Positions 1-40,401 of a stretch of DNA of 64,000 nucleotides are shown one piece after another. Each line of letters starts with the position of its first letter. Positions within the stretch are counted from its first letter, which is position 1. The DNA comes from Nautilus pompilius (taxonomy: Eukaryota > Mollusca > Cephalopoda > Nautilida > Nautilidae): positions 1-64,000 of the forward strand of contig JACATO010001045.1 in the NCBI GenBank assembly GCA_018389105.1. Reading direction: 5' to 3'. The translations under genes were made by a program, and so were the position numbers. The notes beneath the pieces are model-generated. The model did not search any database and was not told where the DNA came from. It worked only from the letters and a program-made list of their open reading frames with translations.

Positions 1-3000
1 TTTTGTGTTTGTTGTTTTTTATCTTCTAGTTTAGTTAAATTTCTAATAAGTGTCATTTCACTTTTCTGTCATAGTGACAGACTTTCCTTATTATACCAGT
101 TTAGTTATTATTTACTTCATTGGTGAATAGATATTTAATTTTGGATCAATACATCCGAATTGCTTTTCTAAAAGATCATTTTAATCAACTGGGAGTATAT
201 GATCTTCCTATTTGTTGTGGCCAACGCAGAGATCTTTTGAATTTAAAACTATCTGTGTTAAGTAAAAACTGATTTTTTTCTTTCTAAGAGTAATATGTTT
301 AGCTCTCATAGGTTTCGAGGTAGATGGTGCATACATTTTCTTATCATGTGTTTTCTGTCTTTATAGATGGATTTACTGATATCGTCTTCAATGGCCCGAA
401 AGTCCACTCTGCCATACTCTTTAAGTTGTTTTCATACACACGAGTAGGGACAGCTAAATTGCATATCATATCTTCATTACTTACGCCACGAGTGTTCGCT
501 CTGAAATCTTTTTGTTTTTTTTTTATTATTTCGCTCATTTGATGTTTGCTTCCATGTCTTTATTTACGTTCACGCTTTCATTAAAGAGAAAAAACAATTA
601 CATAATTCTAATTATGTAGCAGGTTGGGGACTGAAATACCGAAGCCATTTCCTTTCTGTTTCGGCAGTGACGGTTCGGTTCCCATTGTACCATTAGAATT
701 AAAATCTACAGTAGGTTATACAGTACTAAAGCAGTAAATTATTCGCAAAAAGATTACCATTAATTAATAAAAGCGGGTTCATGTACACCAAATGTTTAAA
801 AAACTAAGAAAAAGTTGAGTACTTTAGGAAATAGTCTTTCTTAAATCTGAATATTATAAAGGATAAATCCTACAAAGAACCATTCACGTGTATAATATAT
901 ATGTAAAGTAATTATTTCCTAAAAGATATAATTATTTGTGATTAACTGATTTATAAACCAATCGCAATGTTCATGCTGGCTGTAAAGATAATTTTGGCTG
1001 GTTGTAATACAGCTTTAGAAGAAATTGTAGTGGACCCTAAATATTGGGAGCTTGCAGTTACAAGTTTATTTTGTCAAATTTAAAGGAAAAGACGAAGAAC
1101 AGATTCTATCGATATATCTAAAATCGGAAATGAGAAACTCCTTAAAAGAACTATTAAATAGTGCTGTCTCTGACCTCACATGATCCACTTATAAATTAAG
1201 TTATGTGTATAAAGCATTTTGAAACGTCTACTCATCTATGGGAATAAAATGTGGTTACAATTTAGAAGCGACATTATCCTTGTTGTATAATTCAAAGTTG
1301 TTATCGCATATATTCCATGTAACCAGAAAATTGTTGCAACTTCCATATTCAAATCTTTGCTCTACACTACACATACTACATTCAGATTGGGCGAGGGTCG
1401 ATAACAGATATATATGCAGATGATCGATAGGAAGTACTCTGTAAAATAAGCTATATACTGTTTCACAAATGCGATAACGCTTTCTGGCTCTCACAGAAAC
1501 TGGAGAGCAAAGATAATTATGTGGAGTTGCATGTATCATGTAAGACTACGCGCCATACGTTGATCTCTTGTTCTCGTTGTCAGTGATTAGTTCAAATTAG
1601 CTGTGGTCTCATGCTTCCGTAATGAATAATTGCGTTTATAAAAAAGGTATATCAGTTTGTAAAACAGAAATTTTATTTCTTTAAATAAAAATCATTGAAT
1701 AAATATTGACTGATGCTAATGATACATTTCTTAATATTCTAAAAGCTGTAACTTAAGTTTAACTTTTTTCCATAAGAGCCTCATTGTAGACAATATTTTT
1801 TAGTTTTTCCTTGGAGTGTAACGCAAAACAGACTTTTGTTTACGCCAGCCAGCATCTCACGAGCATCAAACATACAGCTGTTCGTAGAAGCTTAGACTAT
1901 CCAAATAGAGACCAACAACTTTCAATGATTGGCCGGGTCCTGATGGACAATCTTGTGCCATTGCAGAGCTTGGGCGAATCTAAATTTCTTAGTATCATGA
2001 TTGGAACCCCAATTTAACAATTAGATCGTGAGATGAAACAGGAGGTAGTTGAAGAATGTTTTAAAATTCAATAGAATAATGAAACAAATTTTCTACATTA
2101 GTCGTATTATCCACAGATTTGTAGGATCTGGTATCTTTTAGAATTAACTCCAACAGCTCCTGATTCTTTTTGTCAACTGATTCATTTTAGGAGCCAGAAT
2201 AACTCTTTCTGTCAACATGTCTACATTCATAAAATAGTCTCTTGGATGAGAAAAACGTTTAAATAAGCTCCTTCAAAACCATGTGATTTTCCTACATGAC
2301 AGAATAATTTGCCTATCCTCTCCAGATTCACGTACAATACCAATATCAGTATTCAGCAGAACAAAGGAAAATTGTCCTGTTTATTCATTCTCACGGGGGT
2401 GAACAATCATGTTAGCTGTTAAATTTAAGGAACTAACATGTTCACACAGTGATGAATCTTTCCTGCAGACATATAATTCATCTGCATTAGTTTCTCTGGG
2501 AAAAACTGGCAAATTCTGGCGAAAATCTTATTCCATGAGCAATTTGACCCATCCTATCGGACTGTCATTCGTCCAAAGATTTTGCATCATACGATCAAAA
2601 GCTTTAAACGTATTTTTTTGGAATATGCTGCATTTATCCCATGCCAATTCTCTCTTGAAATGTCGCAAATTCCCTTTTCACTGGAGGAAAATGTATTAAA
2701 TAGCTTAAATGTTGCTTGAGCAGTTCTCATTCCAGTCAATAAAGTTGCTTCCATCGATGAAAATGCCACTCCGAGAACAATTCCATTTCTTCGGAGAATT
2801 TTTCATAGACAAAATTGGTTACGTAGATCTTCCCATTGAACCCTGGAGAATCAAATGTTTTCAAGTTCTTCAAAATCATAAAATGTCTCTCCTAATAACT
2901 TTTCAATAAGGAAAATGATCTTCTATATGGGGTGTTAGAAATCCAGAACCTACAAGGACTTTCTCTCCCAAAGACCAATCCTTTTCGTTAATTTTAGTCA

Positions 3001-3110
3001 GAGCTTTGTTATGAATGGAATCTGAAAGTTCAGTCTCTGAATTTACTGGATATCAAAAATTGACATTTATATATATATATATATATAAGCCTCCTGAAAA
3101 ACCTTTGAGA
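1..3110. other. Outer left arm: probable intron of lectin copy A, no gene seen
   Basis: No exon, RNA gene or transposon is recognisable here. By mirror symmetry with the right arm, where the corresponding stretch lies inside the intron between the two CTLD exons, this should be intronic sequence of a plus-strand lectin copy whose upstream exons lie left of the window. Short open frames (such as 324-542) are kept in the other arm only as far as the DNA is kept. A short AT microsatellite lies near 3069-3087. Confidence 0.5.
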
Positions 3111-3113
3111 AAA

Positions 3114-4222
3114 GAGAGCACTCTATATCTTGTAGCGTTCTAAATGATCCCACAAAGTGTTGAATTTTCATTTAGCCGTCCAAATAATCATAAAAGGCAT
3201 TGCACGTATACTTTAGGTTATTAAACTGTCGCACGAAGATTTATCTCTTTATGTAGGTTTCTAAGAAGTCGCACAAAGTGTTGTCTATTTATGTCGGCTT
3301 ATAAACATTCGTATAGCATTTTTTTCTATACGGTACATTGTACGTTTCTAAACAGTTGACCATAGTGTTTTCTATTAATTATAGGTTTGTAAACATTTGC
3401 ACAAAATATTTCCTATCCATTGTAGGTTTTTAAATAGTCGCACAATGTGTAGAATATAATATTCATTGTAAGTTTCTAAACTTCCACAAACGGCGTTGTC
3501 TATTCATTGTAGGTCTGTAAATAGTCGCACAAATTTTACAAAATGGTGTCATCTTATTGTAGCGCTATAAACAGTTGTTTCTTAAATCGTTCCTCACTGA
3601 ATTGGCATCATATTGAGGGTTTGTAAACAGTGTCACAAATGTTTATCTATTCATTGTAGGTTTTTAAGTGTAATCTATGTTTTGTATAGTTTTAGTCGAT
3701 CGCACAAAGTGTTGTTTCTACATTATGGGGTTCCAAAATTCGTAAAAGAACGTTGTCTATTTATTGTAGGTTTATATATATGAACACAAAGTCTTTTCTA
3801 TTCAATGTATGTTTGTAAATAACCACTTAAAGCGGTGTTCATTTATTGAAAGTTTGTAAACAGTCAAGAAACTATCTTTTTCTTCAAAGTTTCCAATCAT
3901 TCGCACAAAATTATCTCTATCCAATGTAGACTTTAAAAACGCACATCGTGTTATCTAGTGTTTGTAGATTTATTTGAATAGTCACAGAAAGGGTTGTCTA
4001 TCCATTGTAGCGTTCTAAATAATTTCACAAGAGTTGTCTGTTCATTGTATGTTTTCAAACAGTTTTAAATTGTGTTGTTTATTCAGCGTATGTTTTTTAA
4101 CAGTCGATCATTGCTTTCTATTAGTTATAGGTTTGTAAACAGTCGCACATAGAGAGGTCTACTCATTGTGTGATTTTAAAATGTCGATCGAAATGTTTTC
4201 TATTCATTGCAGTGGTCTAAAT
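3114..4222. repeat. Degenerate ~40 bp minisatellite, first part (left arm)
   Basis: A tandem array of about 40 bp units. Recurrent words are a gtcgcacaaag-like block, then tctattcattgtagg, then tttctaaac. Measured starts at 3228, 3268, 3308, 3355, 3396 and 3437 give periods of 40-47 bp. Units are strongly diverged from each other. The array is interrupted at 4223 by a hAT element and resumes after it. It lies in the large CTLD intron of the left lectin copy. Confidence 0.85.
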
Positions 4223-5828
4223 CAGTGTTTCTCAACCAGTTGGTTCGTAAAGTGTTTTCTGGGGTGGTCTCCGAACCCTGGAACTTTAAATTTTTGTCGT
4301 ATGACTGAGTCAAGAAACTGTTCATCAGTATGTATCTGTCTTGTTTATATGTACCGTATTTGATGGCTTATAAGACGCACTTTTTTCAGAACAAAGTATA
4401 CAAAAATTGCCCTGCGTCCAATACGTCGGTATCCATTCAGATGCCATCAAAGAAGAGTTCGTGTTTTGTAGTGCATTTGAAACCACTACAAAAGCCAATG
4501 ATATTATGGAGAACATAAGTACCTTTTATGTAACTCTGTGGAGTTTGTACAGATCGAGCACCAGTTATGTTTGGGTCAGAATCAGGCTTCCAGAAGAAAG
4601 TGAAAGGACTTGCTCCCCAAAATAAAGGGCATTCACTGCATGATTCGCCGATATGCTCTTGCCATTAAGGCTCATCCAGCCCCTTTGCAGGAGGTACATT
4701 GATTCTCTGATCAAAATTGTGAATTACATCAAAGCTAGGGCCCTCAACACCTGTCTGTTCAAAGAACTCTACAAAGACATGAATTCTGACCATGAGATTC
4801 TTCTCTTCTACACTGCTGCACGTTGGTTGTCAAAAGGAAATGTTGTCAATCGTGTCCTTGAGCTGAAAGATAAAATCAGATTGTTTCTGGAAGTGCAAGG
4901 TAAGCATGACCTAGTGGCTTGCTTTGATGATGAAGCTTGGATGAAAAGATTTGCTTATTTAGCAGACATTTTTGACCAGCTGAATAAGCTGAACTTCAGG
5001 GAAGGGAAACACACATTCAATTTCAAGACAATCTACAGGCATTTGTATCCGAACTACAAAACTGATGTCGGAAAGTAAACCTTGGTAACATTGCCATGTT
5101 TGAAAAACTCTGCAGTGTGGTAGGCGAATCTGAAGGTGAACTAGATGAGATCCTGTAGGTGAGATTACTGGGCACCTTGAATCCCTTGAAAAGGAATTTA
5201 AACAGTACTTCCCTGAGCTCACAGGAGAAGCTGGTAATCTGGTACGAAATCCATTCTCTGCTTCCCTGGATGTAACCAGTATTCCCGATGAAGTCCAGGA
5301 TGAATTCTTGGATCTGCGGAACCACCCAAGCACGTAACCTGTTTTATGATAAATCGCTGAGTGAGTTCTGGTGTGCTATGTATCAGTCATATCCCAATGT
5401 CACCATCCTTGCCTTCCGAGTTCTGCTTCCATTTGCCTCAATCTATCTCTGCGAGACTGGATTTTCAACTCTTGTTCACATAAAAACAAAGGCAAGGAAC
5501 AGGATGAATGTTGAGAATGACATGAGGTTGGCTTTACAAATACACGGCCGCGAATTTCCAAGCTGGCTGTCCAGACGCAACAACAAGCATCACATTAGGT
5601 CACTAAATTTTGAGAAAGAAAGATATGTTCAGGATGAGTGTAAAATGAATTTTCCTGGTGAATTTCACTCAAAACTGTCAATATATTAAAATAAAACTCT
5701 TATTTATATGATTTCTTTTGCTAAATTTATTCTTTGATTTTTTTCAATTATGGAATTGTAGCAGGGAGTCGCAGGTCTTTTGACTATTAGGAAAAGGTCC
5801 TCGAGTCCAAAAAGGTTAGCAACCACTG
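4223..5828 (+). mobile_element. hAT transposon, 1606 bp, ZBED5/FAM200-like lineage (left arm)
   Basis: The element begins cagtgtttctcaacc and ends in the imperfect inverse ggttagcaaccactg. It is flanked by a perfect 8 bp target-site duplication, gtctaaat, at 4215-4222 and 5829-5836. An 8 bp duplication and CAGTG termini are characteristic of hAT elements. It carries a degraded transposase on the plus strand and sits inside the minisatellite. The mirror copy in the right arm has the same length and the same target duplication, so insertion preceded the duplication of the locus. Confidence 0.93.
4407..5689 (+). pseudogene. hAT transposase remnant (ZBED5/SCAND3/FAM200-type)
   Basis: Three open blocks are separated by stops and frameshifts. 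Block 4407-4625 has the phrase KEEFVFC..FETTTKA, typical of the transposase core of this group. Block 4653-5078 (141 residues) has RWLSKGNVVNRVLELKDK and FAYLADIFDQLNKLN, hallmarks of the ZBED5/FAM200-like family. Block 5288-5689 holds the C-terminal dimerisation (hATC) region with LSEFWCAMYQSYP and LCETGFSTL. The N-terminal BED zinc finger is not visible, so the element is 5'-degraded and cannot make a full enzyme. Family placement rests on recalled motif patterns; inactivity is seen directly from the broken frame. Confidence 0.88.
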
Positions 5829-5936
5829 GTCTAAATAATCGCACAAGCCAATATATATTTATTCAAGTTTGTTATTAATCAGTCGCACAAAGAGTGGTCT
5901 ATTCACTGTAGCGTTCTAAACAGTCGCGCACATAAA
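5829..5936. repeat. Minisatellite, remainder after the hAT insertion (left arm)
   Basis: The same ~40 bp unit continues after the hAT element, with two or three further units containing gtcgcacaaag and gtagcgttctaaac words. The first eight bases (gtctaaat) are the second copy of the hAT target-site duplication. Confidence 0.8.
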
Positions 5937-6956
5937 CCTTTACAAGTAGTTTTGATAAGTAAGGTGGTGACTTTAGACATTTATCAGAAGTGTCCTCCTA
6001 CCAACCCTTATTTATCTGGTCACCTTTACATTCTCACGATCATGTTGGAGAGTAAAGCGTCGTACTCTACTTCAAACTACTATTAAATAGCCAATCTTCT
6101 ATATGAACATCTGAAACCTTTCAATATAAGCCTCTGGCGAAGCATCATACTTACGCCATTTTTCGTCATTTTAAAGTAGAAGTGACCAGTAACATTTGCT
6201 TAAAAGATCAAAATGTATATTAATGAATCATTTGACGACTGATAGAAGCATAAGTCCTGATGCGGCCACACTCAATATTGATTCTGCCAATCTCGTAAAA
6301 TTTTACTGGACATCGTGAATGCTTCCATTAAGAATTAGTAATAAATTAACAATGGGATAATTTCCGAAAGGATTAAATTGTTTTCTAAAACTGTTAATTG
6401 GTGTTGGTTTATCTTCTTTGTAGATTTTTGTTTAATTAATTCGAATATTGCAAGGTTGCACCATCTTTGTAAAATATTTAACAGTATAAAATGCATCTAC
6501 CATTTATTCTTGATCCCAGTAATATACATTTCACATTTTAGAAATAGACATGATCTCGTAAACAGACACTTCCATTGGAAATTAATTGAAACGAACTTAA
6601 TGAATAAATTTTTTGTGTTTTATTTCATTGTTTTGCATTTAGATTTTTTCAGACTTTTTCTTTTTTCTATTTTCGTGCATATTTCAAAATAACTTTGATA
6701 CAATATACAACTAACTTAAAATGGTTTAAAATATCATTATTCGATTAAATTGGAAGCATATTCTTTTATTCTATTGGTCCTTTGCATCAGATATTAAATA
6801 TATCATCAAGATTCTGTGGGTCGGTTACCGTGTAAAATTAAGAATAACCGACCAGAAAATTCGTTTTCATATTAGAAAATTTCTTTCCGGAAAAGTTTTG
6901 TTGAATGTCGTTTTAAATGATCTAAGAATTGAGTTGAACTTATTTATTTATTACAG

Positions 6957-7168
6957 ATGATGAGATTAGCATTGGGATAAACAGCAAGGAAGACCAGAGA
7001 TATGACGTAAACTGGAAAGGGGAGAGGATAAATACAAATCTGTGGAAGGGAAATTTTCTTGGATCCCTTCGATATAAATGCCTATATTTTGTTAAAAGAA
7101 GTTATGGGGTGCATTGGGTGAAGTCTTCATGCGATACAAAACTTTCTTATTACATTTGCTCTAACTAG
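6957..7168 (+). CDS. C-type lectin, final exon of copy A (second half of CTLD)
   Basis: A phase-1 terminal exon preceded by the acceptor tttattacag and ending at TAG (7166-7168). After two bases that complete a split codon it encodes 69 residues plus stop. Features include ISIGIN near the start, a Trp in DVNWKGER, then C, W, C and the closing YYIC. This is the usual pattern of the C-terminal half of a long-form CTLD. EPN/QPD and WND motifs are absent, so classical calcium-dependent sugar binding is not expected. Upstream exons are not in the window and should lie left of base 1. The first 119 bases differ at only two sites from the right-arm copy (39055-39266), but the last 93 differ at 23 sites, almost all replacement. 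Confidence 0.88.
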
Positions 7169-7430
7169 CTGCTTTCTATTTTTCGATATATATAAAGTGA
7201 TTTTTTTATTAAATCGGGCCTAAAAGACCTAACTACATTTGTACATAAGTAATGTGACAGCTGACATTCCCAGGTTAAAAAGAATATCATTGTGGTGAAA
7301 TAGCTATCGTTTACTCAAATATTGCAAGGACCTGATTGATGCTGGATTGATAAAGGTTTATTGCTACAAAAGGTTATGTTAATGAAGAAGGCACTGCTGT
7401 GTTGGACTCAACATGGTTGAACATGTGCTG

Positions 7431-7436
7431 AATAAA
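7431..7436 (+). terminator. Candidate polyadenylation signal for lectin copy A
   Basis: AATAAA about 263 bp after the stop codon, conserved in the other arm (38779-38784 on minus). An earlier ATTAAA lies at 7208-7213. Choice between them is not possible from sequence alone. Confidence 0.3.
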
Positions 7437-10235
7437 TCAGTTTTGATAGGTAGTTAGGGGCCAGTTATATACAGAGGGTTAAACAACAATCTGCTTAAGC
7501 AGGAAACAGCTCTCTGTATCTTATGGATTAACGACTGTCTGTCACGAATGTAATTTTATCTTTATAACTTATTTTCAAAGATACTAAGTATTACCCATTA
7601 ATGAAAAAATTGCTTAGTTATAAACTGCCACTCTTTCGAAGAACTCAGCGCCGAAGTATTTTGAAACAAGTCGATTTTATATATTATTGACAAACCATCA
7701 GTTACATTTACAATGTACACCAAGTGATTTGCTGTTATTGAATTGTATGGAGTAAAGTATAACTGTCATGAAAGGTAACCAAAAAATCTACAGTTATTAG
7801 TGTATAAATTAGGAGTGCAGCTTTATATATCAGAGGAATCTTATGACCAAATTATTAAAAAAATAAAAAAAATTCTGTTTTTAAAGAAGCAGATAATGAA
7901 ATTAAAATTGTAAAATTAATTCTAACTGATTAACAAAGGTAGGGTTCCAAGGGTAAAGATTTGAAAAAAGTGCATGTCATTACACTTCCTCGTGATTAAT
8001 GATAGTTGTTTCGCCATATTTAAGTATAATACTGAAGCAATTTTCGAGTAAAATATTTAAATCTTTTTTTTATATTTGAAATTCTAGGGTAGTTTAAGTA
8101 CACAATACAAAGATCGCATCAACTCTCACGAGCCCACAATTCGAAAAGACTTACCACTTATTATTTTAAATCAAAATATATTAATCCAGCCGGAAATCCA
8201 TTTTTAAAATTCAAAGAAACAGTGTATCAGAACAAGACGTTAATTTCGACTTTGTTATCAAGCTATTACATAAAATATGAATTTTCATTTGTATTAATGT
8301 TGCACATATTTTGGGCATCTATTTACGTAACGCGAAACAGCCTTAACTACTACTCATCCCTGTATTAAGTACGTGCATAACTTAATTACAACAGTTCGAC
8401 CAGTTTCCTTTGACTCTTCGATCTAGTTTGCCATTGACGTTTCTATGTGGACATGGAGTGTAAAATTCATGAAATAAAAAATCCATTCTAATTCTTTTAC
8501 TACTTGGTATTAAATACTAATCTTTACAATATTCTTGAGATCTTTATCTTGCTGCAATCTTTCGCATATCGATTATTGCCCCGACTGATTTCAATTGACC
8601 TTCAGTCTATTGTGATATTTCACTTTACTGCGAATCTCATCAAATTTCTATGAAGTCAGCAGCGAAATAACAAGAAAACTTGATCATCCTTTAAGATGAA
8701 CCTCACCATACCTAATTACAGAGCACACACAGCTCTTCCTATAGTTATGGCTTTTCTTTCTACTTTCATCAAACGTGTAAAATCGAACATTTCAAACACG
8801 CTCTCATTCCACCCCGATACATTGCTAGCTACAAACTATAGTTCTAATGTTTTTTTAAGCCTAAGAATATCGTGTTTTCGTTCAATCACCTCAATGCAAG
8901 ATTATAGTGACTACCTGGCCAATTAATTCAATCTTAAATTAACCATAGTCTTTACAATCAGCAATCTATTTTTCCGTTCAATGACTTTTCTCTTTATTTT
9001 CCGACCAGATAACTACATGGTTGAGTTACTTCAATTCAATGTACAAACAAAAGTTTGTTTGTATATCAACCACTAAATTTTATCTTTTCTACAATTTTCC
9101 ATAGCCATTAACCAACTTTATGCCTAGAAGTAATGATGGTCATGTTTCATATAACGGTATGTCCTTTAAATGCTATATTTTAGCCAGAAAATTAAGAGCA
9201 AGCATCAATAAAATTTTTAAAATAGGTGCATGGAATAGGCAACTGATTCAAAATAATCATAAGAAATAATATCTGAAGAACGCGATAAAAACGTCCTTGT
9301 GATTTGGTATAAATTTGGCATTGACAGATATCATTTACTAAGGCCATAATTATTCAAAATGTTTGAAACGATAACATCACAATGGTTCATATGTTTTGAT
9401 AAACAATTCATGGGATATTTAGTTATTTTCTATGATAAATCTTTTCCATAATGAAATTATAAAAAAGAAAATAAGTGTTTTCGTAAAGTAAACTCAAAAT
9501 TTCAAACGCAATATCCTGCAGTTTACATACACACAACATTAACTATAGTTTGAATTTTTCATGGTACTATACGGTATTTGGGAATCTTTATAATTGGTCT
9601 TGTAATTTGCTCTGAAATACTTTTGTTAAATCTACTATTGTTTTAATTATATGTAGTTATTGAATCATAGAAAGCAGAACCACAAAAAGTAAGATGGACA
9701 CTATATTGGGTGTATGCGCACGCAGCATAATTTTAATATTCATTGTTTTTTGTTCAAAATATATAATAATGTTATAATGTACTTATCTTATTTTTGTCAA
9801 ACATTTGATATTTTGAGAGTTTTAATAATATGTATAGCCTTTGTAATTTTTAATAATAAAAATAACTGCACCAAACACCTGTGTATCGTTTTTTCTTGTT
9901 CTGTTTATAAATGACCTTTTAACGTACGAGTCAAGTTATAATTTTATGCTAAATAAGTACGAAAAACCGAACTGAACACCACGGAGTTCGAGTCGACTCC
10001 CATTTTCATTTCAGAACTTTTCTTGTATTTATTTGATACAAAGAATTTCCGGACAATTATCATTTATAAAATTTCTTATTTTATTAATTCTACTTTTGAC
10101 GACTGCAAATTTTTATTTTGTATGCCATCATTAAACGACTTAGCTCATTTCCTAAAAAAAATATTATTTTTACATGGTAAACACAAACACACTGGCTGCT
10201 ATAATAGTGCATACATTATTAAAATATTGCAATAA

Positions 10236-10423
10236 TTATATACCACTCAAAATTTGTTTTGGATCAGCGGACACAACTTTGTTGTCGTAATGTTTATAAG
10301 TGCCGTAAGGAAAGCAAATTTGTAATGTGCATAAAGTATAATATAAGCAGTCATTATGATTTAAAATGTAACTATTATCTGGAAACCGAATTTGCACAGT
10401 TTGTGCTGTAACACTGAATCCCG
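10236..10423 (-). CDS. Possible phase-1 terminal exon, unknown protein (left arm)
   Basis: An open minus-strand frame follows an acceptor-like ccttacatttgcag. It starts in phase 1, as the lectin exons do, and runs 62 codons to TAA at 10236-10238. It contains QIRFPDNSY and three closely spaced cysteines (NDC, LC, IC). I do not recognise the domain. Between the two arms the putative exon shows only synonymous differences (two seen), while the residues just upstream of the acceptor change. That is weak support for constraint. The right-arm copy uses TAG instead of CAG at the acceptor, which is still a valid AG. No upstream exon was found, so this may be chance. Confidence 0.25.
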
Positions 10424-11140
10424 CTGCAAATGTAAGGTTAGATTTCAACTTTTCGTTGGTAAACGGTTTCTCCTACCTTCAAGAACAAAACGCCGACATC
10501 TTGGTGATACGTTTTTTACTCGAATCCGTCTTCAGCTTATTGTCTAACACTACCACCAAAAGTGTGATGCAAGTTCATGAGATTGAAGCATTAATTTACG
10601 CTAAGCACATCTGAAACATAACAACGTGTTGCTCCAGTGTCTAAGAAACTATTTCGTCTGGTAAGTTCTCTGTCCGTCAAATGTCGCTGTTGGGCCATTC
10701 TTTGCCATCCATCATAAAACAATGATCAGCTTAGTGATGAAGCAATTATTTACCAAAACTAAAGTGTGCAAATGAATGACATCTATCTGAAAATCAGGGG
10801 ACCGTATTGTCACGTGATACTCAAACCCTTTTCGCACTGGAAGTGGAAGTAATTTCGTCACAATGTCAAACGAGGTCTCAAAGCGGGACATGGTTTGTTA
10901 TCGACAGTAAATTGTACAAATATTAAATACAATATTGAAAAGGTGCTGATAATAATCTGAGCATAATAACAGATTGCGTGGCATGTTTAATAAATTTTAT
11001 AATTCATATATTTTTATTTACATTATTGTTACAATCATGACCACGGTCATAGTGTATTACATTAATTTTCGATAATATATATAGTTTGTAAAAGATTGCC
11101 TTCATTTATGGTTACCATTGTACCTATATATATATATATA

Positions 11141-12783
11141 TACACCGGTGTGCAAAAGTCTTGCATAAAAATAATTTTTCCTGTAAATTAGCTCGTATTT
11201 TGTCGAAAGCAGGTGTTATCAAATCTTGTTCATTAAAGAATTTCTATATTACTGTTGTGCATATATTCCAATAATATCAAGCATATTGTTTCATTGTAAG
11301 AAAAGTTATAATTTGAAGAAAATCATTTGCATAAAATCAAGGTGTGAAAAGAGGTGCATAAAATCTAGACAGCTATCTAATCAATACAGATTCAATTCCA
11401 ATTATGCAGAAAGTGATCAGATCTATCAATAATGAGTAGAATATCCGAAATTCTACGATACTTGTTCACAACGACGAGGCATGCTGGCTTTCAAACACTG
11501 ACAATTGTCACTACTGAACTGCAACCAGGCTTCCTCGATTTTCCGTTTCAAATCGGTTTTATTTTCGGATTTTTAACACTAACGCTGAGTTTAATTGGGT
11601 GCCAAATGTTTTCGATGTGATTGAGATCCGGGCATTGAACCGGCCATTGGAGGAGGCGGATTCGCAACTCTGCCATCAAAGCCTTGACATTCCTAGCTGT
11701 GTGGATGAGGGCGTTGTCCTGCTGATAGATGGCTGTCAGGAGCATGTGGTCACACACATACTGTTCGACAATGTCCGAGACGATCTTAGCATAGTTATGA
11801 GCATTCATTCGACCCTCCACGTGATGCAATGGACGGACACCGGACGATTGAAAACAGCCTTAAACCATGGCCGAATCTCCTCTGCTTGTAGAGTCGTTCG
11901 ACTGCATCTAGGATGGAATTTCTCCGACACCGATCGCCGAACGTACATCCAACCGCTGAGTGGACCCTCACAAATTTGCTTTCGTCGGAAAACATCACTC
12001 GGGACCACTGGGCCACGGTCCAGTGGAGATGGTCGGGAGCCCACTGCAGTCTTTTTCGACGATTGTTCAGACTGATAAACGGCTTCTTCTGTGCCGATCG
12101 CCCGAACAGTCCCTTGTGGATCAAGCGCCGTCTGAAGATGCACGAGGCCAACTGGATCCAATGGTGCCTTGGCAAGGCGCTCTGGATGTCGGTGGAAGTT
12201 CGAAATCGGTACGAGTTCGACATTCGGGCGATCAGACGATCCTGTCGAGCCATTGTTTTCCGCGATCTGCCGGCTTCTGCGTTTCGAAATTAGGCTCCCA
12301 CCGGGTTTCCAACGTTTAAGGATGCGAGATATCGTCGACTGATTGCAACCGATTCGATTCGAAATGACCAACTCAGTTTCACCATCTTCTTTAATGCAAA
12401 CGATTATGGTCCACTCTTCTGGAGTCAAATATAGGGCTGTCGGCATCACTATATTGAACAAAAAATGAATCAGAATAGTGGAAAATGACAGTTTTTTCAT
12501 ACTTATATTATACTGTCATAAACTATTATAGCACAAAATATATATTCTAATTTTTTTCTATTTTATACAACACTTTTGCACACGCCGATTTCATACATAT
12601 TGTTTTATTAATATTTAAATTTTGAATGTACAATTACAAAATGGATCCTAGTGTTATAAGTCGTTTAAAGAGACCGATTACTTTCAATTAAAACAGAAAA
12701 CATACAATAGTCACTAATTTCTACAAAATAACCCATTTTCTAAGTCTAGTAATATTTTTGCAAGACTTTTGCACACTGCTGTA
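11141..12783 (-). mobile_element. Tc1-like IR/DR element 1 (left arm)
   Basis: The outer termini are caccggtgtgcaaaagtc (11143) and the inverse of gacttttgcacactgctg (ending 12781), flanked by TA inside a (TA)n tract. A second, inner copy of the same word occurs within each end: a degraded one near 11339-11366 and another near 12564-12592. Paired direct repeats within long terminal inverted repeats define the IR/DR group of Tc1 elements, such as Sleeping Beauty or Minos. Length is about 1.64 kb. It encodes a broken DD34E transposase on the minus strand. The mirror copy is at 33424-35061. Confidence 0.93.
11548..12500 (-). pseudogene. Tc1-like DD34E transposase, frameshifted (left arm)
   Basis: Reading from 12500 downward, the N-terminal helix-turn-helix region has NRIGCNQSTISRILKRW. 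A frameshift follows, then a block with VMFSDESKFV holding the first catalytic Asp. After another frameshift a block has IYQQDNALIHTA (second Asp) and CPDLNHIENIWH (catalytic Glu), with 34 residues between second Asp and Glu. This DD34E spacing is diagnostic of Tc1. The frame is broken at least twice, so no active enzyme is expected. The middle section differs from the right-arm copy much more than its flanks do. Confidence 0.9.
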
Positions 12784-12855
12784 TATATAGCAAGAATAAG
12801 TAGGTTTGTATTTTAAATCCTATACCATTGGTACATCTTAGTTATTCCATAATAT

Positions 12856-15739
12856 GGGTACTGAAACTCCGCACTCAACTTATAAATTCCGAAAAACGTC
12901 TAACAGCCATCACTTAAGTTCATCACTGAAAATAACATCATATATAGCACAAAGTAAGTAGTGCAGTTTCAGGAGCATCAGAAATTGCCATGCCTTAAGT
13001 GCACGCACTCAATCCAAACTCAAATTACCTTTTCAAATTTTCTTACGGAAGAATTTATTCACATATCTGATGATTAGCTACTGCAATTTAAAATAAAAAA
13101 AATTACAGGTAGAAATTCAAAAGAAATGACCGACAATAAATTCTTTCTGACGATCTTAGACAAATGTCTTCCCGCTTCAAAACAAAGCCAAATTTGGGAT
13201 CTTTGAACTGTCGAAAATTGACGACAAAGGCATAAAATATACAATATTTCCCCTAAAACTTAACCAAAAGTGGGACCTTCTATCTTCCCTCCTAATTACA
13301 AAACAATATCTGCTACTTTTGACTGTTTAGAGTTAATGCTCTACGAAATTCATGTTAGAAAATGGTATAAAAATTTTTTATATAATTTTTGTTGCAACTT
13401 TTTCTGAATAACAATTTTAAAAAGTAAAATTTTATAGAATTAGGAAGCAATATATTTTGTGAATTATTAAATGTATTTAATGTATTGTTTCCTTTCGTAT
13501 TTAAAAAAATACTTTCTGTTGTTATACATTCAAGCGAACACCAAAGCGTTATTTTATTTTTAAAAAATCGAATATATAATTTTTTGAAAAGATCGTTTGA
13601 AACTTTTTGTATTATACGATTTCTTTTTAAACATCACACAAAACTTCAGAATTTTTCTATTGAGCACTTTTTTAAAAAGTACAATACTAACTTGATGACG
13701 TTTGTTTTCTATGCTCCATCAGCCATGAGCTAATTCAAGGTGGAAAGAATAAAAAGTGACGCCTTTCAGTGGATCGAACACGAAGTAACCATACAGGCAA
13801 GGCTGAGAATAAGAACCAAATGTACCATTGAGCTTCATTATTTCAGTAAAGCTCTTGATAAAATGCGTATTTTAAACAGTTCCGTTATAGATTAATAACT
13901 TATAAAATACATGAAGGACGTAGATTTGAATATTCCAATTTCTTATCAACAATCTGATGTTTTCGCCACAGAGTTCACATCAGCAAACTTTATTTTCGAT
14001 TTGTTTAATTCATCCTAAAGTAAGCTTGAGAACGTAAAATAGACACAAAATATATAAATGTTTCGAGTTATTTTGAAAATTTTGTGAGAATGAATAGCAT
14101 CAACAATAAGAAAAATGTTGGAGAAAACCTGAATATTTGATTAGATTCGCCGGCCAAGTGCAAGGCAGGTTAGGGCCGATCCAACTGCCTAAGACGAACG
14201 GTCGGCAGCATGGCCCTTGGGCACCAATCAGAGCCTATACCAAACCCTCACATGCGTATACACCAAAACACATTTACATACACACACCTCATCCCCCCAC
14301 CAACTGGAACAAAACTGTAGTTTATGTTGGAAATTCAAACATTTTATATGGAGGACACAAAACTGGAAAATTCTGTTTCAGAAAAAGATTTCGGTGTTCG
14401 TTATTGACACAAAAACAAAAGAATGTCTGTTTAGTTATATGCGTAAAAGGTCTTGATTAATGAGCATTGTCAACAGGTCGTGCCGGTTAGGAGCACATTT
14501 ATGGAAAATATATTTATTCCTTGAGATAAATTCAGAACAGATTTCTTGAAAGTTTTAATGATTTGTAGGATTTTTGCTATTAAAATATCATGAGATTTAA
14601 GCACTTTCGATTTTAAGGTATAGAACAATTTTACATTGGTTATCAAATCTCAAAATAGTTAAGGTTCCTGAGCACATAGGCACCAAGAAGTCTGATCTCT
14701 CAGATTTCACACTAAAGGTTATATTTAGAAATCACGACATTTTACATAAGTTAACCAAATTTTAAATTAAATAAATTTAAAGCAGCGATATTTTAAAATG
14801 GTAGCTTTATTAGGTTCTGTTTCTTTCAATGAATTTCTGTGTAAGCTTTGTAACAATTAATAATAAATTTATATCGTTAATATTTATTAGAAAAATACAT
14901 TTGTAAATTAAGAATATGAAGAAAAGTAATTTTCCTTTACCTTAATAGGAATTGAAACAAAATACTGGCTGAGGGCTTCAATGATATTTCGCCGAGATGC
15001 TAACATTAGAGTTTTGAACAGACGAAAACTGTTTGAGAATACCGAACTTTTTATTTTCAGTAGGTCTTCTGCTAATTTTTTCAATAATTAATTGTGAAAC
15101 TATAAAAAAAAAACAGTTTCATCTGAACGGTACTAACTTTAGCATAAGTTTTAGTATCAATTGAACACTTTTCTATATTAACGTCTTTTACATTGACATA
15201 ATTCAAGAAGAGAGAACCCAAAATTGAAGTCTGCCGCTCACTGTTGGAGACGTGGTGATATTTTGCCTGAAACTGCACAATGTTTGCTCTATTCTTTGAA
15301 AAGTTCGTTCGCTAAATCAAACGTGTACCAGCAGCAAAGATTTCATTTATACATCGGGTTCGTTAAGCGAAAATTGGAGAAAGATAGATTTTTTTTCAAA
15401 TAATGGTACGATTATTTACCTTCGAAGGTTTGAAATGATGAGCCACTTGAAAAGTTAAGATGGTCCAGTACATAACTGAGAGGTTTAATACCAATAGGTT
15501 ACCATTCTGGTGGTCTGTCCCTAAAAGGGAGCACTTCACACTTCTTATACCCGGAATTGCTGATGCAATATAGAAGACAAACTTCAGTGCATTCACATAC
15601 AGATCCAATGCTTATCATAATGGAAGATTCCCATGGTGTTGAAACAAATTATTATGATGTACTATATTAAGTTGTGAGTGGTATGTGCTTAATTATCGCG
15701 CTAGAGAATTTAATACATTTTTGTGGAGTTTCAGTACCC
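12856..15739. mobile_element. Possible 2.9 kb DNA element with short inverted termini (left arm)
   Basis: The word gggtactgaaactcc at 12856 recurs inverted as ggagtttcagtaccc ending at 15739. Looser similarity continues inward (a taaattc word in both). No target-site duplication is clear and no transposase is seen inside. It could be a non-autonomous element or a chance pair. Confidence 0.25.
14146..14235. other. GC-rich block followed by CA-rich tail (left arm)
   Basis: About 90 bp of CpG-containing, GC-rich sequence starting gattcgccggcc stands out sharply from the AT-rich surroundings. An ACACAC/CCCCC-rich stretch follows to about 14310. The pattern resembles a fragment of a dispersed repeat with its own base composition, but I cannot assign a family. 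It is present unchanged in the right arm at about 31975-32064. Confidence 0.35.
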
Positions 15740-16415
15740 ACTTTTTATTACTGAGTACCTGAACGTTATGCAATAGCTATAGAGTTTGGAATTCAAACCC
15801 ACTTATCCCTGTTATGTATACACACTGGTGGCCATATCGAACACATCTATCAAATATCACTATCTTGCTCAAACTTACTGCAACGTATTTTCTAACGATT
15901 ATATTCTAATGTTGATGAAAATGTTTGTATTATTAAGTGCATTAAATAAAATCGCGTTTGCGATTTGGTTTTACAAGAAAAATACCTTTCTAAACAGAAA
16001 TTCAGTTGAAATCTTACCTTGAATTTTTAAAATGCGCTATGGTTCAAACACAAACTGTACGATATGGACTTCGAGTTGAGATTGAAGAAAAGTCAATAAA
16101 ATTTATCTGCGTAATGGCCCTTAAATTTTAGTATATAAACATTCCAACTTTGCTTTTCTTATGGTACCTATCAACATTATCTTATCGACGTTGTGTCCTT
16201 CATTCGTTACAGTTTTTATCAGCATGTATTAAATTTATTATTTCAATAATGAATCCACAATTTTCCGCCAAGGTTTTATGCTTACTATATAGAAATAAGC
16301 GAAGAGATTTATTGATAATAAACAAATAAAATTCCGTTGAAGAAATTAAAATTTTATGCGTAAGAAAATTTCATCAATAATAATAGCTCAAAAATTGTTT
16401 GTAACGAAAAAAATA

Positions 16416-16519
16416 GGACGGCTCGGCAGTCCATCGGGAGGCGACCGTACTTTAAAGTCGAGGGCCTGAGTTGATTCACTTAGCAATCGGGTCGCTTCAT
16501 CGTACCTCCATGCCCTGGA
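16416..16519 (+). repeat. tRNA-derived SINE-like block (left arm)
   Basis: The block contains an A-box-like ggctcggcagtcc (16420) and, about 48 bp later, a B-box-like gagttgattca (16468) that lacks one base of the consensus GGTTCGANTCC. An anticodon-arm-like segment lies between them. Box order and spacing suit an RNA polymerase III promoter derived from a tRNA. The degraded B box and lack of a clean acceptor stem argue against a functional tRNA. The mirror copy is at 29690-29792. Confidence 0.4.
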
Positions 16520-19211
16520 GTTAAAAGTTTACAAAAACGTAAGGAAGCTAGTTATAAAATTAAGAATGAAAGAGCGTGTAATTATCCTTTATGATGAAAA
16601 TAAATACAAGTATAAATGTCTGAAAAGGTTAAGGTAAGTAAATTATGATATAATTACGTTTTTAACAATGCATATGAGAAAACAACAATAAAGGCTTATT
16701 GAAGCAAAATTTGAAATACAGTGATAAAGAAAAATTAAGGCAATTCTTAAGTTCAGTATGATTACACTTTTATAAATTATTCAAAAGAAGTTTAATATTA
16801 TGGGTCCATTATAGGAAAATAGTTATTTGCCTTCTTAATGTAAATTAAATATCATAGAAAATATCTAAATTCAGGTGAACCATGAATTTTGGTGTTACGT
16901 TTCAAACAAAATGCATAATTATAAACCAAGCAAATGATGTATGTCAATGTAGAATTTAGTTCATACCAAAAGCATTATCTTATAGCTTTCTTCAGAAATC
17001 GTTTGTTATTACTAATTTGAATCACTGTAGCTCCCCCAATGCATTTATACAAATGTTATTGGTAAGTACTCATATTTTTCTGGCAAGAAAACAGTACCCA
17101 GATTACCATCACCCTTTTAAGATCATAAACTATCAATAAAAGATCCTTCAAAAGGTAAGGCTTAAGGAGTGGTTTCCACACAACCGTTTGTTTATGGATC
17201 GAATTCAAGTAACTCACCCATGATATTAAAGGGTATAGAAAGGGAAATGCTTTTAAGCAGAAAAATTGGTTGTTTTTGGAAAAAAATACAGTTAAGCTTC
17301 AGATTTCATGGATTGCGAAAACAGCAGCCAGAAAACTCTTGTATTGACGTGGTTAAAAGAAAGCGATATAACTGGACTAAACAGTATCAGAACTACAGTT
17401 AGTATCCAGCAACGTATGAAGGTTTGAAACATTTGGTCTTACCGGAACAATTTGTAGAATGGCCTGCAAAAGTTATAGAGAGAGCTGCATTTGCTCTACA
17501 GTTAAGTAAGCTGATACTAAGCTAAAGTGCGGTATAGTTTTGCTAGTTATTTCTGCTTGTTAACGGTAGCATTTCATAAAGACTTAACGAGGAAAGAGAT
17601 GAGGGCTGTTCTAAAATAAACAAAACAACCCAAATCAACGCACGGCGCGTAATCCTACTTGATAAACTCGTCTTCAGTTTAATCCCAATAGAAGCAGTGG
17701 CCAACCAGTTTTAAGTTGTACGAGGCTGGATGCTAACCTACAACCAATCAGAAGGTAACGCGTATCGGCTAAATAAAAATCAAATATGGAATTATGCAGC
17801 AATTCCGTAGTCACAGAACATTTATGCGGCTAGCAAGTGTGATTGTCAATGCACAACTAATGTGGGTTTTATTGTGACGCAACTACATTTTATTGCCTTA
17901 AAAGTGTATACATTTCAAAAGGTGTTTACATACGTAATATACTTTAGATCAGTAGGTCGTGTGATATCATATTTTAACACCTGTCTGACTGATAGAAATG
18001 TATGGCCTTCGATCAATCTTTGATGATAGTTGATTTCATGCTTCCAAAACACTGGAACAGCAAAAATTCAAACACTCTGCTTTTGAGTTGTTTTGATCTT
18101 CTTAAAATTGTTCCACAGTGCCAACTTTCAGGTTAAAGTGTTAGCAATTTCATTTTCTCGTATGCTGATGCAGTTTTATATTTGTCTTTCAGAATTTTCA
18201 TAATACTACTAAGATCACATTTAGTCGATGATTTTATGACATCACATTTGCACCTGTAAATTCCCTACGTGTCATATCAAGTATTATGCAAACTTCTAAA
18301 GTAGTTGCTTCACTTGCCTTATCCTATTATATAACATTTACCCACAGCTTTCAAAGAAGAACCATCAAGTAGTTCAATGTTGATGCTAGATGGCCGTAGC
18401 AACATCAAGAGGTTCAAAATCTTCATCTCTGTAATTTCATCTTGGTATCTAATACCTGTAGGCTCAAAATTTTCATTTCATCTTGATCATGATTTTTAAG
18501 CTTCATGTGACACTGTGGGCATAGATTTTGCCCAGGAATTAAATTGTTTCTTTAGATATAAAGAAAATAAATTAAATTATTTTATCATAAGAGAAGTCAA
18601 CGGAGTTATAAAGAGAAACAGCTGAAAGTAAACATGCACCGGTAACATCAAAATAATATATTCTTGTATCTTAAATAATTGATTTATATATTTTTAGTAC
18701 TAAAATAAAAGTGTTTCCAGAAGAAATTCTAATTTTCCAATAGTTTAATAAATGTCACAGAAAGAAAATATCATTTAAGTTTGGATTGATGCAATATATT
18801 CCGAATGTTATTGTGACTATATAGGTAGGATGAAACTTTTTTCTAAAAGGTGGATTTCTTGTTCACAACATGTCAAGACAAAAGTCATCGCCATTATGCA
18901 ATATTTGCAAAGAATGGAAAACAAAATACACATGAATCAACTACAATTGAGCCATCTGCAATGTCTGTAGTGTCGTTGTATCACCGTAAAGATAGAGCAA
19001 GGAAATGAATGAAGATAGATATACATCTATTTTACTTCAACAAAAAAACATATCAAAGCTAATATCTAAGCCTATATCTCTAATGTTAAAGTTAATCCTA
19101 AACAACATACAGTTGTTCATCAAGGAGGGCAGTGACACCAGCAACAGATAAAAAATGCAGTTGCAACAACACTGAACCATCTCATTTCGTACAGGTATTT
19201 ACCAATGTTGA

Positions 19212-20713
19212 TACTACAGTTCCGGACAAGAGATGGGACACCTGCTATGAAATTGATATTTGAGCTCCCTCGTTTTAACAAACGCATTTAAATACCCATC
19301 ACATTGTTTATTATATGTACAAAGCAAGCTGTTACAATGTATAAAAGAAACAAATGCAATATGTTTACATATTCTCTGGAAAAAATATTTCAATCGGCAA
19401 TGTCCGATTTGTACCGCGACAAAAGAGTTGGGACAGTGAGCAAAATCATAAATATTTAAATATTTTTCAACATTCCCAATTACAATCGAACAAATGTATG
19501 GAAACGATCAATTGACTAGTAGTGGGTGATGTATCCGTGATTTTCGATAACTTCTCGACAACAACGGGGCATGGATTCGACCAAACGAAGGCAGACGGAA
19601 TTGGTCATTTCCTGCCAGCTTTTCTCGACAGCCTGCAAGAATTGGTCTTGATTGAGATTCTTGTGTTTGGCCATCTTGGCCATCATTTACTTCCAGGCAT
19701 TTTCTATTGGGTTGAGATCCAGACTTTGGGGCGGCCAGCGCAAGACATCCATTCCTAGTTGGGTGGTGAGGGAAGAGACGACTCTGGCGGTGTGGATCTG
19801 GGTTGTCGTGCTGAAAGATGGCGATGACTGCTCTCTTCTCGCCGGTCGGTTGAACTTTATATTGTATTTTTCGCCATGGTAACGTCGAACACATATTCGG
19901 TCAGGACTGTCAATGCGCATGATCATCGTTTCGTCGGAAAAGCGAACTCTAGCTCATTGAATTTTGGTCCCGTTTTTGTGCGTTTTAGCCCATGCTATGC
20001 AGATGCGCCTGTTCTTAATGCTGATCAATGGCTTTTACTGGGCGATTCGTCCAAAGAGATTCCCCTCGCATAGACGACGTTCAATAGTACGACTGGAGAC
20101 ATTCACTCTACTCATGGAGGCTCGAATGGCCGTCGATTGCAGGAAACGATTGGCCCTGGATTTGCGACAAATGAGTCGATCCATTTTGTTGTCACATTTT
20201 TGGGGTGTTCCGATTCGCATTTTTACTTTCGTCTTTCCAGTCTCCTTGTACTGCTTCAGAATGCGGTTTACAGTGATTTTCGGGCGATTGACTTGATCGG
20301 CTATCTCCCGACAAGACAGATTTTCTTGGTGGTGTTCAACTATCAAGTATCTGATTTCAGACGACGTTGACTTGCCAGGCATGGTGCAAAAAATTATCTT
20401 AAATGGTCTTAGCTGATGTGATTCTGTTCATTTGATCCTTTAAAATTGTATATATTGAGGGGAATAAATGTATGCCCTGAGTTTGTTAACTGTTCCAAGT
20501 CTTTTGAAGCGGTACAAATTTTACTCTGCTAATTCAAATATTTTTTCCAGACAATGGATATACATATTACATTCGTTGTTTTTACATATTGTAAAGGCAG
20601 GTTTTAGTCAACTTATGGACAATAGGATAGCTATCTCTATGCAAATGTAAAAACAAGAGAGCTCAAATATCAATTTCACAGCAAGTGTCTAAACTCTTTT
20701 GTCCAGCACAGTA
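19212..20713 (-). mobile_element. Tc1-like IR/DR element 2 (left arm)
   Basis: Long terminal inverted repeats of roughly 240-270 bp are bounded by TA. Each end has two direct-repeat motifs: outer tccggacaagagatggg (19221) with inner cgcgacaaaagagttggg (19415) on one side, and the inverses at 20489-20513 and 20681-20708 on the other. This is IR/DR architecture. Length is 1.5 kb. It encodes a broken minus-strand DD34E transposase. Its inner terminus lies 13 bp from the palindrome's inner breakpoint. Confidence 0.93.
19516..20382 (-). pseudogene. Tc1-like DD34E transposase 2, frameshifted (left arm)
   Basis: Starts with MPGKSTSSEIRYLIVEHH at 20382. The paired helix-turn-helix region (CREIADQVNRPKITVNRIL) and a second DNA-binding segment continue for 115 residues to 20035. 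Later frames carry the catalytic region: QHDN with IHTA (second Asp), then SLDLNPIENAWK (Glu). The ending ENHGYITHY at TAG 19516-19518 is a common Tc1 C-terminus. Frame changes near 20035 and in the catalytic region disable it. Its N-terminal half is better preserved than that of the right-arm copy. Confidence 0.9.
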
Positions 20714-20726
20714 GATATATGTCTAT

Positions 20727-25492: not shown

Positions 25493-25505
25493 ATAGACAC
25501 ATATC

Positions 25506-26990
25506 TACTGTGCTGGACAAAAGAGTTTAGACACTTGCTGTGAAATTGATATTTGAGCTCTCTTGTTTTTACATTTGCATAGAGATAGCTATCCTATTGT
25601 CCATAAGTTGACTAAAACCTGCCTTTACAATATGTAAAAACAACGAATGTAATATGTATATCCATTGTCTGGAAAAAATATTTGAATTAGCAGAGTAAAA
25701 TTTGTACCGCTTCAAAAGACTTGGAACAGTTAACAAACTCAGGGCATACATTTATTCCCCTCAATATATACAATTTTAAAGGATCAAATGAACAGAATCA
25801 CATCAGCTAAGACCATTTAAGATAATTTTTTGCACCATGCCTGGCAAGTCACGTCGTCTGAAATCAGATACTTGATAGTTGAACACCACCAAGAAAATCT
25901 GTCTTGTCGGAGATACCGATCAAGTCAATCGCCCGAAAATCACTGTAAACCGCATTCTGAAGCAGTACAAGGAGACTGGAAAGACGAAAGTAAAAATGCG
26001 AATCGGAACACCCCAAAAATGTGACAACAAAATGGATCGACTCATTTGTCGCAAATCCAGGGCCAATCGTTTCCTGCAATCGACGGCCATTCGAGCCTCC
26101 ATGAGTAGAGTGAATGTCTCCAGTCGTACTATTGAACGTCGTCTATGCGAGGGGAATCTCTTTGGACGAATCGCCCAGTAAAAGCCATTGATCAGCATTA
26201 AGAACAGGCGCATCTGCATAGCATGGGCTAAAACGCACAAAAACGGGACCAAAATTCAATGAGCTAGAGTTCGCTTTTCCGACGAAACGATGATCATGCG
26301 CATTGACAGTCCTGACCGAATATGTGTTCGACGTTACCATGGCGAAAAATACAATATAAAGTTCAACCGACCGGCGAGAAGAGAGCAGTCATCGCCATCT
26401 TTCAGCACGACAACCCAGATCCACACCGCCAGAGTCGTCTCTTCCCTCACCACCCAACTAGGAATGGATGTCTTGCGCTGGCCGCCCCCAAGTCTGGATC
26501 TCAACCCAATAGAAAATGCCTGGAAGTAATGATGGCCAAGATGGCCAAACACAAAGAATCTCAATGACCATTCTTGCAGGCTGTCGAGAAAAGCTGGCAG
26601 GAAATGACCAATTCCGTCTGCCTTCGTTTGGTCGAATCCATGCCCCGTTGTTGTCGAGAATTATCGAAAATCACGGATACATCACCCACTACTAGTCAAT
26701 TGATCGTTTCCATACATTTGTTCGATTGTAATTGGGAATGTTGAAAAATATTTAAATATTTATGATTTTGCTCACTGTCCCAACTCTTTTGTCGCGGTAC
26801 AAATCGGACATTGCCGATTGAAATTTTTTCCAGAGAATATGTAAACATATTGCATTTGTTTCTTTATACATTGTAACAGCTTGCTTTGTACATATAATAA
26901 ACAATGTGATGGGTATTTAAATGCGTTTGTTAAAACGAGGGAGCTCAAATATCAATTTCATAGCAGGTTCTCTTGTCCGGAACTGTAGTA
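25506..26990 (+). mobile_element. Tc1-like IR/DR element 2 (right arm)
   Basis: Mirror copy of 19212-20713 with the same TA boundaries and IR/DR ends. It has lost about 8 bp inside the outer direct repeat at its 3' end (near 26968) and carries several one-base indels in the coding part. Its start at 25506 is 13 bp inside the right-arm boundary. Confidence 0.93.
25837..26694 (+). pseudogene. Tc1-like DD34E transposase 2, frameshifted (right arm)
   Basis: Same gene as in the left arm, starting MPGKS at 25837 and ending at TAG 26692-26694. One-base deletions near 25857 and around 25910-25917 shift the frame in the helix-turn-helix region, damage not seen in the left copy. Recognisable parts are VNRPKITVNRILKQYKETG, the HDN/IHTA catalytic segment and LDLNPIENAWK. 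The extra lesions are mostly single-base indels, which could be real decay or consensus errors. Confidence 0.88.
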
Positions 26991-29689: not shown

Positions 29690-29792
29690 CCAGGGCATGG
29701 AGGTACGATGAAGCGACCCGATTGCTAAGTGAATCAACTCAGGCCCTCGACTTTAAAGTACGGTCGCCTCCCGATGGACTGCCGAGCCGTCC
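29690..29792 (-). repeat. tRNA-derived SINE-like block (right arm)
   Basis: Mirror copy of 16416-16519, with the same A-box-like and degraded B-box-like motifs on the minus strand. Confidence 0.4.
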
Positions 29793-30469
29793 TATTTTTT
29801 TTCGTTACAAACAATTTTTGAGCTATTATTATTGATGAAATTTTCTTACGCATAAAATTTTAATTTCTTCAACGGAATTTTATTTGTTTATTATCAATAA
29901 ATCTCTTCGCTTATTTCTATATAGTAAGCATAAAACCTTGGCGGAAAATTGTGGATTCATTATTGAAATAATAAATTTAATACATGCTGATAAAAACTGT
30001 AACGAATGAAGGACACAACGTCGATAAGATAATGTTGATAGGTACCATAAGAAAAGCAAAGTTGGAATGTTTATATACTAAAATTTAAGGGCCATTACGC
30101 AGATAAATTTTATTGACTTTTCTTCAATCTCAACTCGAAGTCCATATCGTACAGTTTGTGTTTGAACCATAGCGCATTTTAAAAATTCAAGGTAAGATTT
30201 CAACTGAATTTCTGTTTAGAAAGGTATTTTTCTTGTAAAACCAAATCGCAAACGCGATTTTATTTAATGCACTTAATAATACAAACATTTTCATCAACAT
30301 TAGAATATAATCGTTAGAAAATACGTTGCAGTAAGTTTGAGCAAGATAGTGATATTTGATAGATGTGTTCGATATGGCCACCAGTGTGTATACATAACAG
30401 GGATAAGTGGGTTTGAATTCCAAACTCTATAGCTATTGCATAACGTTCAGGTACTCAGTAATAAAAAGT

Positions 30470-33351: not shown

Positions 33352-33423
33352 ATATTATGGAATAACTAAGATGTAGCAATGGTATAGGATTTAAAATACA
33401 AACCTACTTATTCTTGCTATATA

Positions 33424-38000: not shown

Positions 38001-38778
38001 TTGACTTTTTAAAATGGATTTCCGGCTGGATTAATATATTTTGATTTAAAATAATAAGTGGTAAGTCTTTTCGAATTGTGGGCTCGTGAGAGTTGATGCG
38101 ATCTTTGTATTGTGTACTTAAACTACCCTAGAATTTCAAATATAAACAAAAAGATTTAAATATTTTACTCGAAAATTGCTTCAGTATTATACTTAAATAT
38201 GGCGAAACAACTATCATTAATCACGAGGAAGTGTAATGACATGCACTTTTTTCAAATCTTTACCCTTGGAACCCTACCTTTGTTAATCAGTTAGAATTAA
38301 TTTTACAATTTTAATTTCATTATCTGCTTCTTTAAAAACAGAATTTTTTTTATTTTTTAATAATTTGGTCATAAGATTCCTCTGATATAAAGCTGCACTC
38401 CTAATTTATACACTAATAACTGTAGATTTTTTGGTTACCTTTCATGACAGTTATACTTTACTCCATACAATTCAATAACAGCAAAGCACTTGGTGTACAT
38501 TGTAAATGTAACTGATGGTTTGTCAATAATATATAAAATCGACTTGTTTCAAAATACTTCGGCGCTGAGTTCTTCGAAAGAGTGGCAGTTTATAACTAAG
38601 AAATTTTTTCATTAATGGGTAATACTTAGTATCTTTGAAAATAAGTTATAAAGATAAAATTACATTCGTGACAGACTGTCGTAAATCGAGAAGATACAGA
38701 GAGCTGTCTCATACTTAAGCAGATGTGTGTTTTTAACCCTCTGTATATAACTGGTCCCTAACTACCAATCAAAACTGA
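35062..38778. other. Intergenic right-arm DNA before the lectin 3' end
   Basis: Mirror of 7437-11140. Nothing beyond the possible exon at 35782-35969 is supported. Confidence 0.5.
35782..35969 (+). CDS. Possible phase-1 terminal exon, unknown protein (right arm)
   Basis: Mirror copy of 10236-10423. The acceptor is ccttacatttgtag, the frame is phase 1, and it ends at TAA 35967-35969. The predicted residues inside the exon are the same as in the left arm, with two silent changes. I do not recognise the domain and found no upstream exon. Confidence 0.25.
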
Positions 38779-38784
38779 TTTATT
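38779..38784 (-). terminator. Candidate polyadenylation signal for lectin copy B
   Basis: AATAAA on the minus strand about 270 bp after the stop codon of the lectin gene. Position is conserved with 7431-7436 in the other arm. Confidence 0.3.
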
Positions 38785-40291: not shown

Positions 40292-40393
40292 GGTTTATGT
40301 GCGCGACTGTTTAGAACGCTACAGTGAATAGACCACTCTTTGTGCGACTGATTAATAACAAACTTGAATAAATATATATTGGCTTGTGCGATT
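40292..40393. repeat. Minisatellite, short part (right arm)
   Basis: Mirror of 5829-5936: two or three ~40 bp units next to the hAT element. Confidence 0.8.
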
Positions 40394-40401
40394 ATTTAGA
40401 C

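Follow-up and report, generated by a model that had tools for sequence, protein, structure and literature searches.

Invertebrates diversify their recognition proteins without antibodies. In Biomphalaria sudanica, hyperdiverse C-type lectin genes are reported, and in the accessible part of that source the diversity is spread over regions and over several lines (PMC10875847), whereas the PAN-PAN-CTLD gene of the Nautilus locus analyzed here, compared between two haplotypes, has one divergent tract of about 145 bp; palindromes do not feature in that part of the B. sudanica source. Another related system is the amphioxus VCBP2/5 cluster, where, according to the available text, polymorphic immune-type genes likewise occur with large palindromes and gene conversion acts alongside rapid allelic divergence; however, these genes encode immunoglobulin V-type and chitin-binding domains rather than a CTLD, and the same text mentions no last exon mirrored in the palindrome arms (PMC2632668). 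The long inverted repeats of Caenorhabditis resemble the present locus in that their arms are kept similar by an active mechanism, but they contain homologous gene pairs, and a divergent immune-type exon patch does not feature in the accessible part of their description (PMC1803023). Finally, exon 2 of the grey partridge MHC class IIB genes is a binding-site exon subject to selection, recombination, and gene conversion, although it belongs to a different family and, as far as the available text indicates, was characterized with population data (PMC3720538) rather than with two haplotypes as here. Among the papers that the literature searches listed, no locus of this kind was noted.

The window, i.e., the whole stretch of 64,000 nucleotides of Nautilus pompilius DNA that was analyzed, forms the beginning of contig C1000 (130,063 bases) in an assembly of 728 Mb and 2558 contigs. 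It contains a palindrome with arms of approximately 20.7 kb each and a gene on the minus strand whose exons 1 to 4 are situated outside the right arm and whose last exon is within it (Table 1). Since the contig begins at base 1, the true outer edge of the left arm is not seen. Joined at AG/GT edges, with introns in phase 1, the five exons encode 328 residues in one open frame. The last exon encodes the C-terminal half of the CTLD and is present in both arms, in two versions referred to as A and B. The two copies are not equivalent, since in the assembly the minus-strand copy alone is joined to a complete gene. No upstream exons of the left copy were found among the listed frames of at least 40 residues that hold C and W; the contig edge is nearby, and a full gene beyond it is possible. 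In line with this, the DNA at 46225-48224 occurs once per haplotype in the assembly. Inverted low-complexity repeats are located at 49229-49349, beside exon 3, and at 57682-57848, and frames labeled by eye as transposase-like are found within the arms at 4644-5689, 11518-12515, and 19508-20427.

Table 1. Features of the palindrome and of the PAN-PAN-CTLD gene (window positions)
Feature	Positions	Strand	Remark
Left palindrome arm	1..20726	+	Mirrors right arm; contig begins at base 1
Final exon, mirror copy, version A	6957..7168	+	Without upstream exons in the assembly
Counterpart of divergent tract	7076..7219	+	Four-copy alignment
Right palindrome arm	25493..46224	-	Mirrors left arm
Divergent tract (93 coding and ~58 bases of 3' flank)	38997..39147	-	Outer edge set by hand from alignment
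Final exon (exon 5), CTLD C-terminal half, divergent version B, complete gene	39055..39266	-	Direct comparison
Exon 4, CTLD N-terminal half	46833..47021	-	
Exon 3, PAN domain	49384..49620	-	
Exon 2, PAN domain	51106..51381	-	
Exon 1, with the start codon and, by eye, a likely signal peptide	51545..51617	-	

Base-by-base comparison of the two exon copies revealed 25 differences over 212 positions, distributed as the original prediction had stated: 2 of the first 119 bases and 23 of the last 93 differ, and within this 93-base block 15 of the 31 codons are changed, 14 of them with replacement of the residue. Two further statements of that prediction were reproduced, namely that the 100 bp upstream of the exon are identical and that the framework (Cys, Trp, Cys, and YYIC) is unchanged between the versions. 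Contig C2546 (4.9 Mb) carries the same palindrome at its start and, over the compared stretches, is collinear with the window and past it, and because of this collinearity C1000 and C2546 are read as likely alleles. Four exon copies can be compared, those of the left and right arms of the window (W_L and W_R) and those of the C2546 arms (C_L and C_R). Version A is common to W_L, C_L, and C_R, with few changes and with C_L and C_R identical to each other, and the odd version B is private to one of the four copies, W_R. The C2546 allele is also open, and its splice edges are identical.

The encoded protein is probably secreted. Pfam identified PAN_1 in two stretches and Lectin_C at 38.5 bits for the B-carrying allele versus 34.1 bits for the other, both above the curated cut-off of 22.6, and the top PDB match of the CTLD, with the C2546 allele as query, was the secretory phospholipase A2 receptor. 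The conserved CTLD cysteines were found present by eye; those of the C-terminal block are kept in A and B, and the divergent segment covers the second to the fourth of them. C-type lectins that bind sugars in a calcium-dependent manner carry EPN or QPD plus WND. None of these three motifs was seen by eye in version A or B, and neither version thus has this combination. Given in addition that the EPN/QPD loop, presumably located just before the divergent segment, is almost the same in both versions, the data do not point to classical sugar recognition, and a variation in ligand is possible.

The divergent tract is not limited to coding DNA. Its size is about 145 bp, and it passes the stop codon (7168) by some 50 bases. 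A total of 68 sites private to W_R were identified in the local alignment, 35 of which are inside 7076-7219, as compared to one each in the adjoining stretches 6853-7075 and 7220-7370. From the stop codon to approximately position 7219, the 3' flank shows 14 private mismatches over 51 positions in the MAFFT alignment, whereas an affine-gap alignment gives 8 mismatches, a 1-bp gap, and an 8-bp gap (counted by eye in the printed alignment); this flank is partly TA-rich, and its mismatch count varies with the alignment. The divergence level of the noncoding part is similar to that of the coding part, which differs from what protein-level selection predicts, and the extension into noncoding DNA weakens a purely protein-level cause. 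The original prediction had considered the change to be confined to the 93 coding bases, which did not hold, and had named a block reaching into the 3' flank, in a generally divergent region, as evidence against itself; such an extension exists for about 50 bp but is not region-wide. What is observed is a bounded run of linked differences across coding and noncoding DNA, as expected of gene conversion.

The uniqueness of this tract was assessed by a scan for private islands over 17,861 columns present in all four copies. The exon block is the strongest, with 23 private sites per 100 four-way columns, as compared to a permuted maximum of 7 (500 shuffles). Among the best eight windows per copy, four other islands reached at least 12 per 100 columns, at 3674, 4528, 11882, and 20426. 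The last two are within dispersed repeats that each have at least 36 places outside the palindromes, and the island at 4528 has 3 such places among the matches listed. The island at 3674-3776 is private to W_R, with 14 per 100 columns, and has no copies outside the four arms among the matches listed; a degenerate 41-bp tandem repeat (3336-3445) is found about 230 bp away. In consequence, the exon block ranks first among the private islands outside dispersed repeats without being the sole one. The exon, used as query against the assembly, matched the four copies and none beyond.

Signs of exchange between the arms emerged from the comparison of the four sequences. Of 384 sites whose pattern takes more than one private change to explain, 338 place the two arms of a haplotype together and 5 the orthologous arms; of the remainder, 26 are crossed and 15 have more than two states. 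Substitution differences amount to 1.64% between the arms of the window, 1.46% between those of C2546, and 3.1-3.6% between haplotypes. A stretch of 974 bp that includes the exon (6611-7569) shows no difference between C_L and C_R, as compared to a permuted maximum of 780; of the 7 such C_L/C_R tracts of at least 500 bp, it ranks fourth in length. A crossed patch was also noted, in that W_L equals C_R over 647 bp (5698-6345; permuted maximum, 434). Provided that the duplication is older than the split of the haplotypes, the grouping of arms within a haplotype is what inter-arm conversion predicts, and such conversion appears to have made the arms alike. The existence of two exon versions and of exchange between the arms is thus supported by these alignments.

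The insertion of a variant by conversion from a paralogue, as proposed originally, was sustained in part: the narrow edges of the tract, its noncoding extension, and the signs of conversion in the arms agree with it, but a paralogous donor was not found. The assembly, from which the palindrome's left flank is missing, perhaps along with other parts, was searched with the B tract as DNA and with B as a 30-residue block, and in both cases the four known places alone were retrieved. The A exon as protein matched 18 places, 4 of which are the known copies, and the best of the others had 47% identity over 32 residues. In tblastn comparisons, A had the better E-value at 12 of 14 paralogue loci and B at 2, but since several of these loci are near-identical, the 14 comparisons are not independent. 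The polarity of A and B is uncertain, as tblastn favors A and the Lectin_C score favors the B-carrying allele, in which other residues differ too.

Taking these data together, we consider it moderately probable that a divergent version which existed beforehand is now present as a short tract in one of the two alleles, having arrived, or been trimmed, by short-tract gene conversion or recombination. A divergent C-terminal CTLD segment with the start of its 3' flank would have entered one allele, and the tract would have arrived by short-tract conversion or recombination or been cut by it to its present size, within 20.7-kb arms that seem to exchange sequence; in the other haplotype, the exon copies are identical. 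The tract seems to have come in as a unit, and its source may be a paralogue missing from the assembly or else an old allele that recombination has narrowed, two options that are hard to separate with two chromosomes. Points against this reading are that no donor was found in the assembly, that there is the second W_R-private island at 3674-3776, that the polarity of A and B is uncertain, and that part of the 3' flank is TA-rich and depends on the alignment. Lesser clusters of W_R-private sites flank the exon block, with near-clean gaps in between, comprising 9 sites in 6771-6852 and 11 sites in 7371-7523; they fit an older divergent allele of greater length better than a single clean insertion.

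These clusters, located to either side of the core, also speak for a rather unlikely alternative, an ancient allelic polymorphism under balancing selection at the gene itself, in which B would be an old allele whose flanks were eroded by recombination with A chromosomes and with the other arm, so that a narrow divergent core was left. That both alleles are open, with the framework of the block kept, is in line with it, and so is the conservation of the last exon of a neighboring paralogue between the same haplotypes. This head-to-head relative, with a similar PAN-PAN-CTLD order, is located outside the window (C1000:90068-94648, plus strand). Between the haplotypes, its exons 2, 4, and 5 are 99.6%, 99.4%, and 99.1% identical (edges set by hand), so that no comparable patch was detected in its last exon; its exon 3, at 94.2% (13 mismatches and 2 gaps of 260), is more divergent than its neighbors. 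However, the sample consists of two chromosomes from one assembly, and in 7220-7370 the two arms of the window share 7 haplotype-specific sites, which makes that flank as young as the remainder.

An artefact of assembly or sampling, by which one locus, sampled as four haplotypes from a pool or a polyploid, would have been falsely joined into palindromes at contig ends, appears improbable. It would be in keeping with the fact that both contigs start at or within the left arm, but the palindromes of the two contigs have different centers, each of the four arms has a sequence of its own, and the exon differences are coherent, with the frame kept.

The original prediction had also suggested diversifying selection. 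According to Nei-Gojobori counts and a one-sided Fisher test, the dN/dS of the block is 1.29 (p 0.49) for W_L versus W_R and 1.67 (p 0.30) for C_R versus W_R, thus not significantly above 1, although with few sites and low power. When the 23 changes were placed randomly and uniformly, at least 14 of 15 changed codons were replacements in 26% of trials (p 0.26), i.e., the observed replacement share fits random change, and the suggestion was not borne out. In the same uniform placement, all Cys, Trp, and the stop were kept, along with an open frame, in 0.5% of trials (p 0.005), which indicates that version B diverged as coding sequence; divergence under coding constraint is therefore supported. 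Exons 1-4 have a dN/dS of 0.44 between haplotypes (14 changes, 9 replacement and 5 silent). Identity to the head-to-head paralogue is 62% for PAN 1, 37% for PAN 2, 46% for CTLD-N, and 36% for CTLD-C before the block, as compared to 24% (A) and 21% (B) for the block itself, which is the least conserved of the five segments, making a fast long-term evolution of this segment plausible. Point substitutions accumulating in place in the ligand face under diversifying selection are nevertheless very unlikely as the explanation, since the 14 replacements among 15 changed codons, the low conservation of the segment, and the 5 replacement and 0 silent changes between the A exons of W_L and C_R (p 0.34) are outweighed by the lack of significance of the dN/dS values and of the 5:0 ratio, by a replacement share that random change would give, by the entry of the tract into noncoding DNA, and by the large local excess that 23 in-place changes over 93 bases would require in arms that differ by 1.64% overall.

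A binding-face exon within palindrome arms, with two open versions at one gene, would be a place to measure how conversion erases and spreads variants. A function in recognizing varied ligands is plausible, and so is a diversification of immune genes, which falls short of proof for an arms race. A further and doubtful possibility is that the palindrome serves as a two-slot cassette store, in which arm conversion or inversion would swap the expressed ligand-face exon: exons 1 to 4 would be anchored outside one arm, with the expressed last exon inside it and the gene-less mirror copy opposite. If true, this would allow a heritable, perhaps somatic, switching of the lectin binding surface.

Another CTLD last exon also occurs as inverted copies, at C1776:81294 (minus) and 102784 (plus) and at C2165:6383 (minus) and 19911 (plus). 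These copies are 13-21 kb apart, point away from the center, and have flanks mirrored at the sampled points. A genome-wide theme of lectin exon palindromes was considered and dropped, the orientation at C1776 and C2165 being unlike that of the present locus; as 14 of the 48 matches listed were sampled, no rate for such palindromes follows. Near-identical CTLD exons were also observed on the minus strand of C789, at 5006 and 14802; their alignment over 598 positions has 4 mismatches and 2 gap positions, and they show an SSSY/RIIL difference directly after a Cys, which perhaps corresponds to paired indels.
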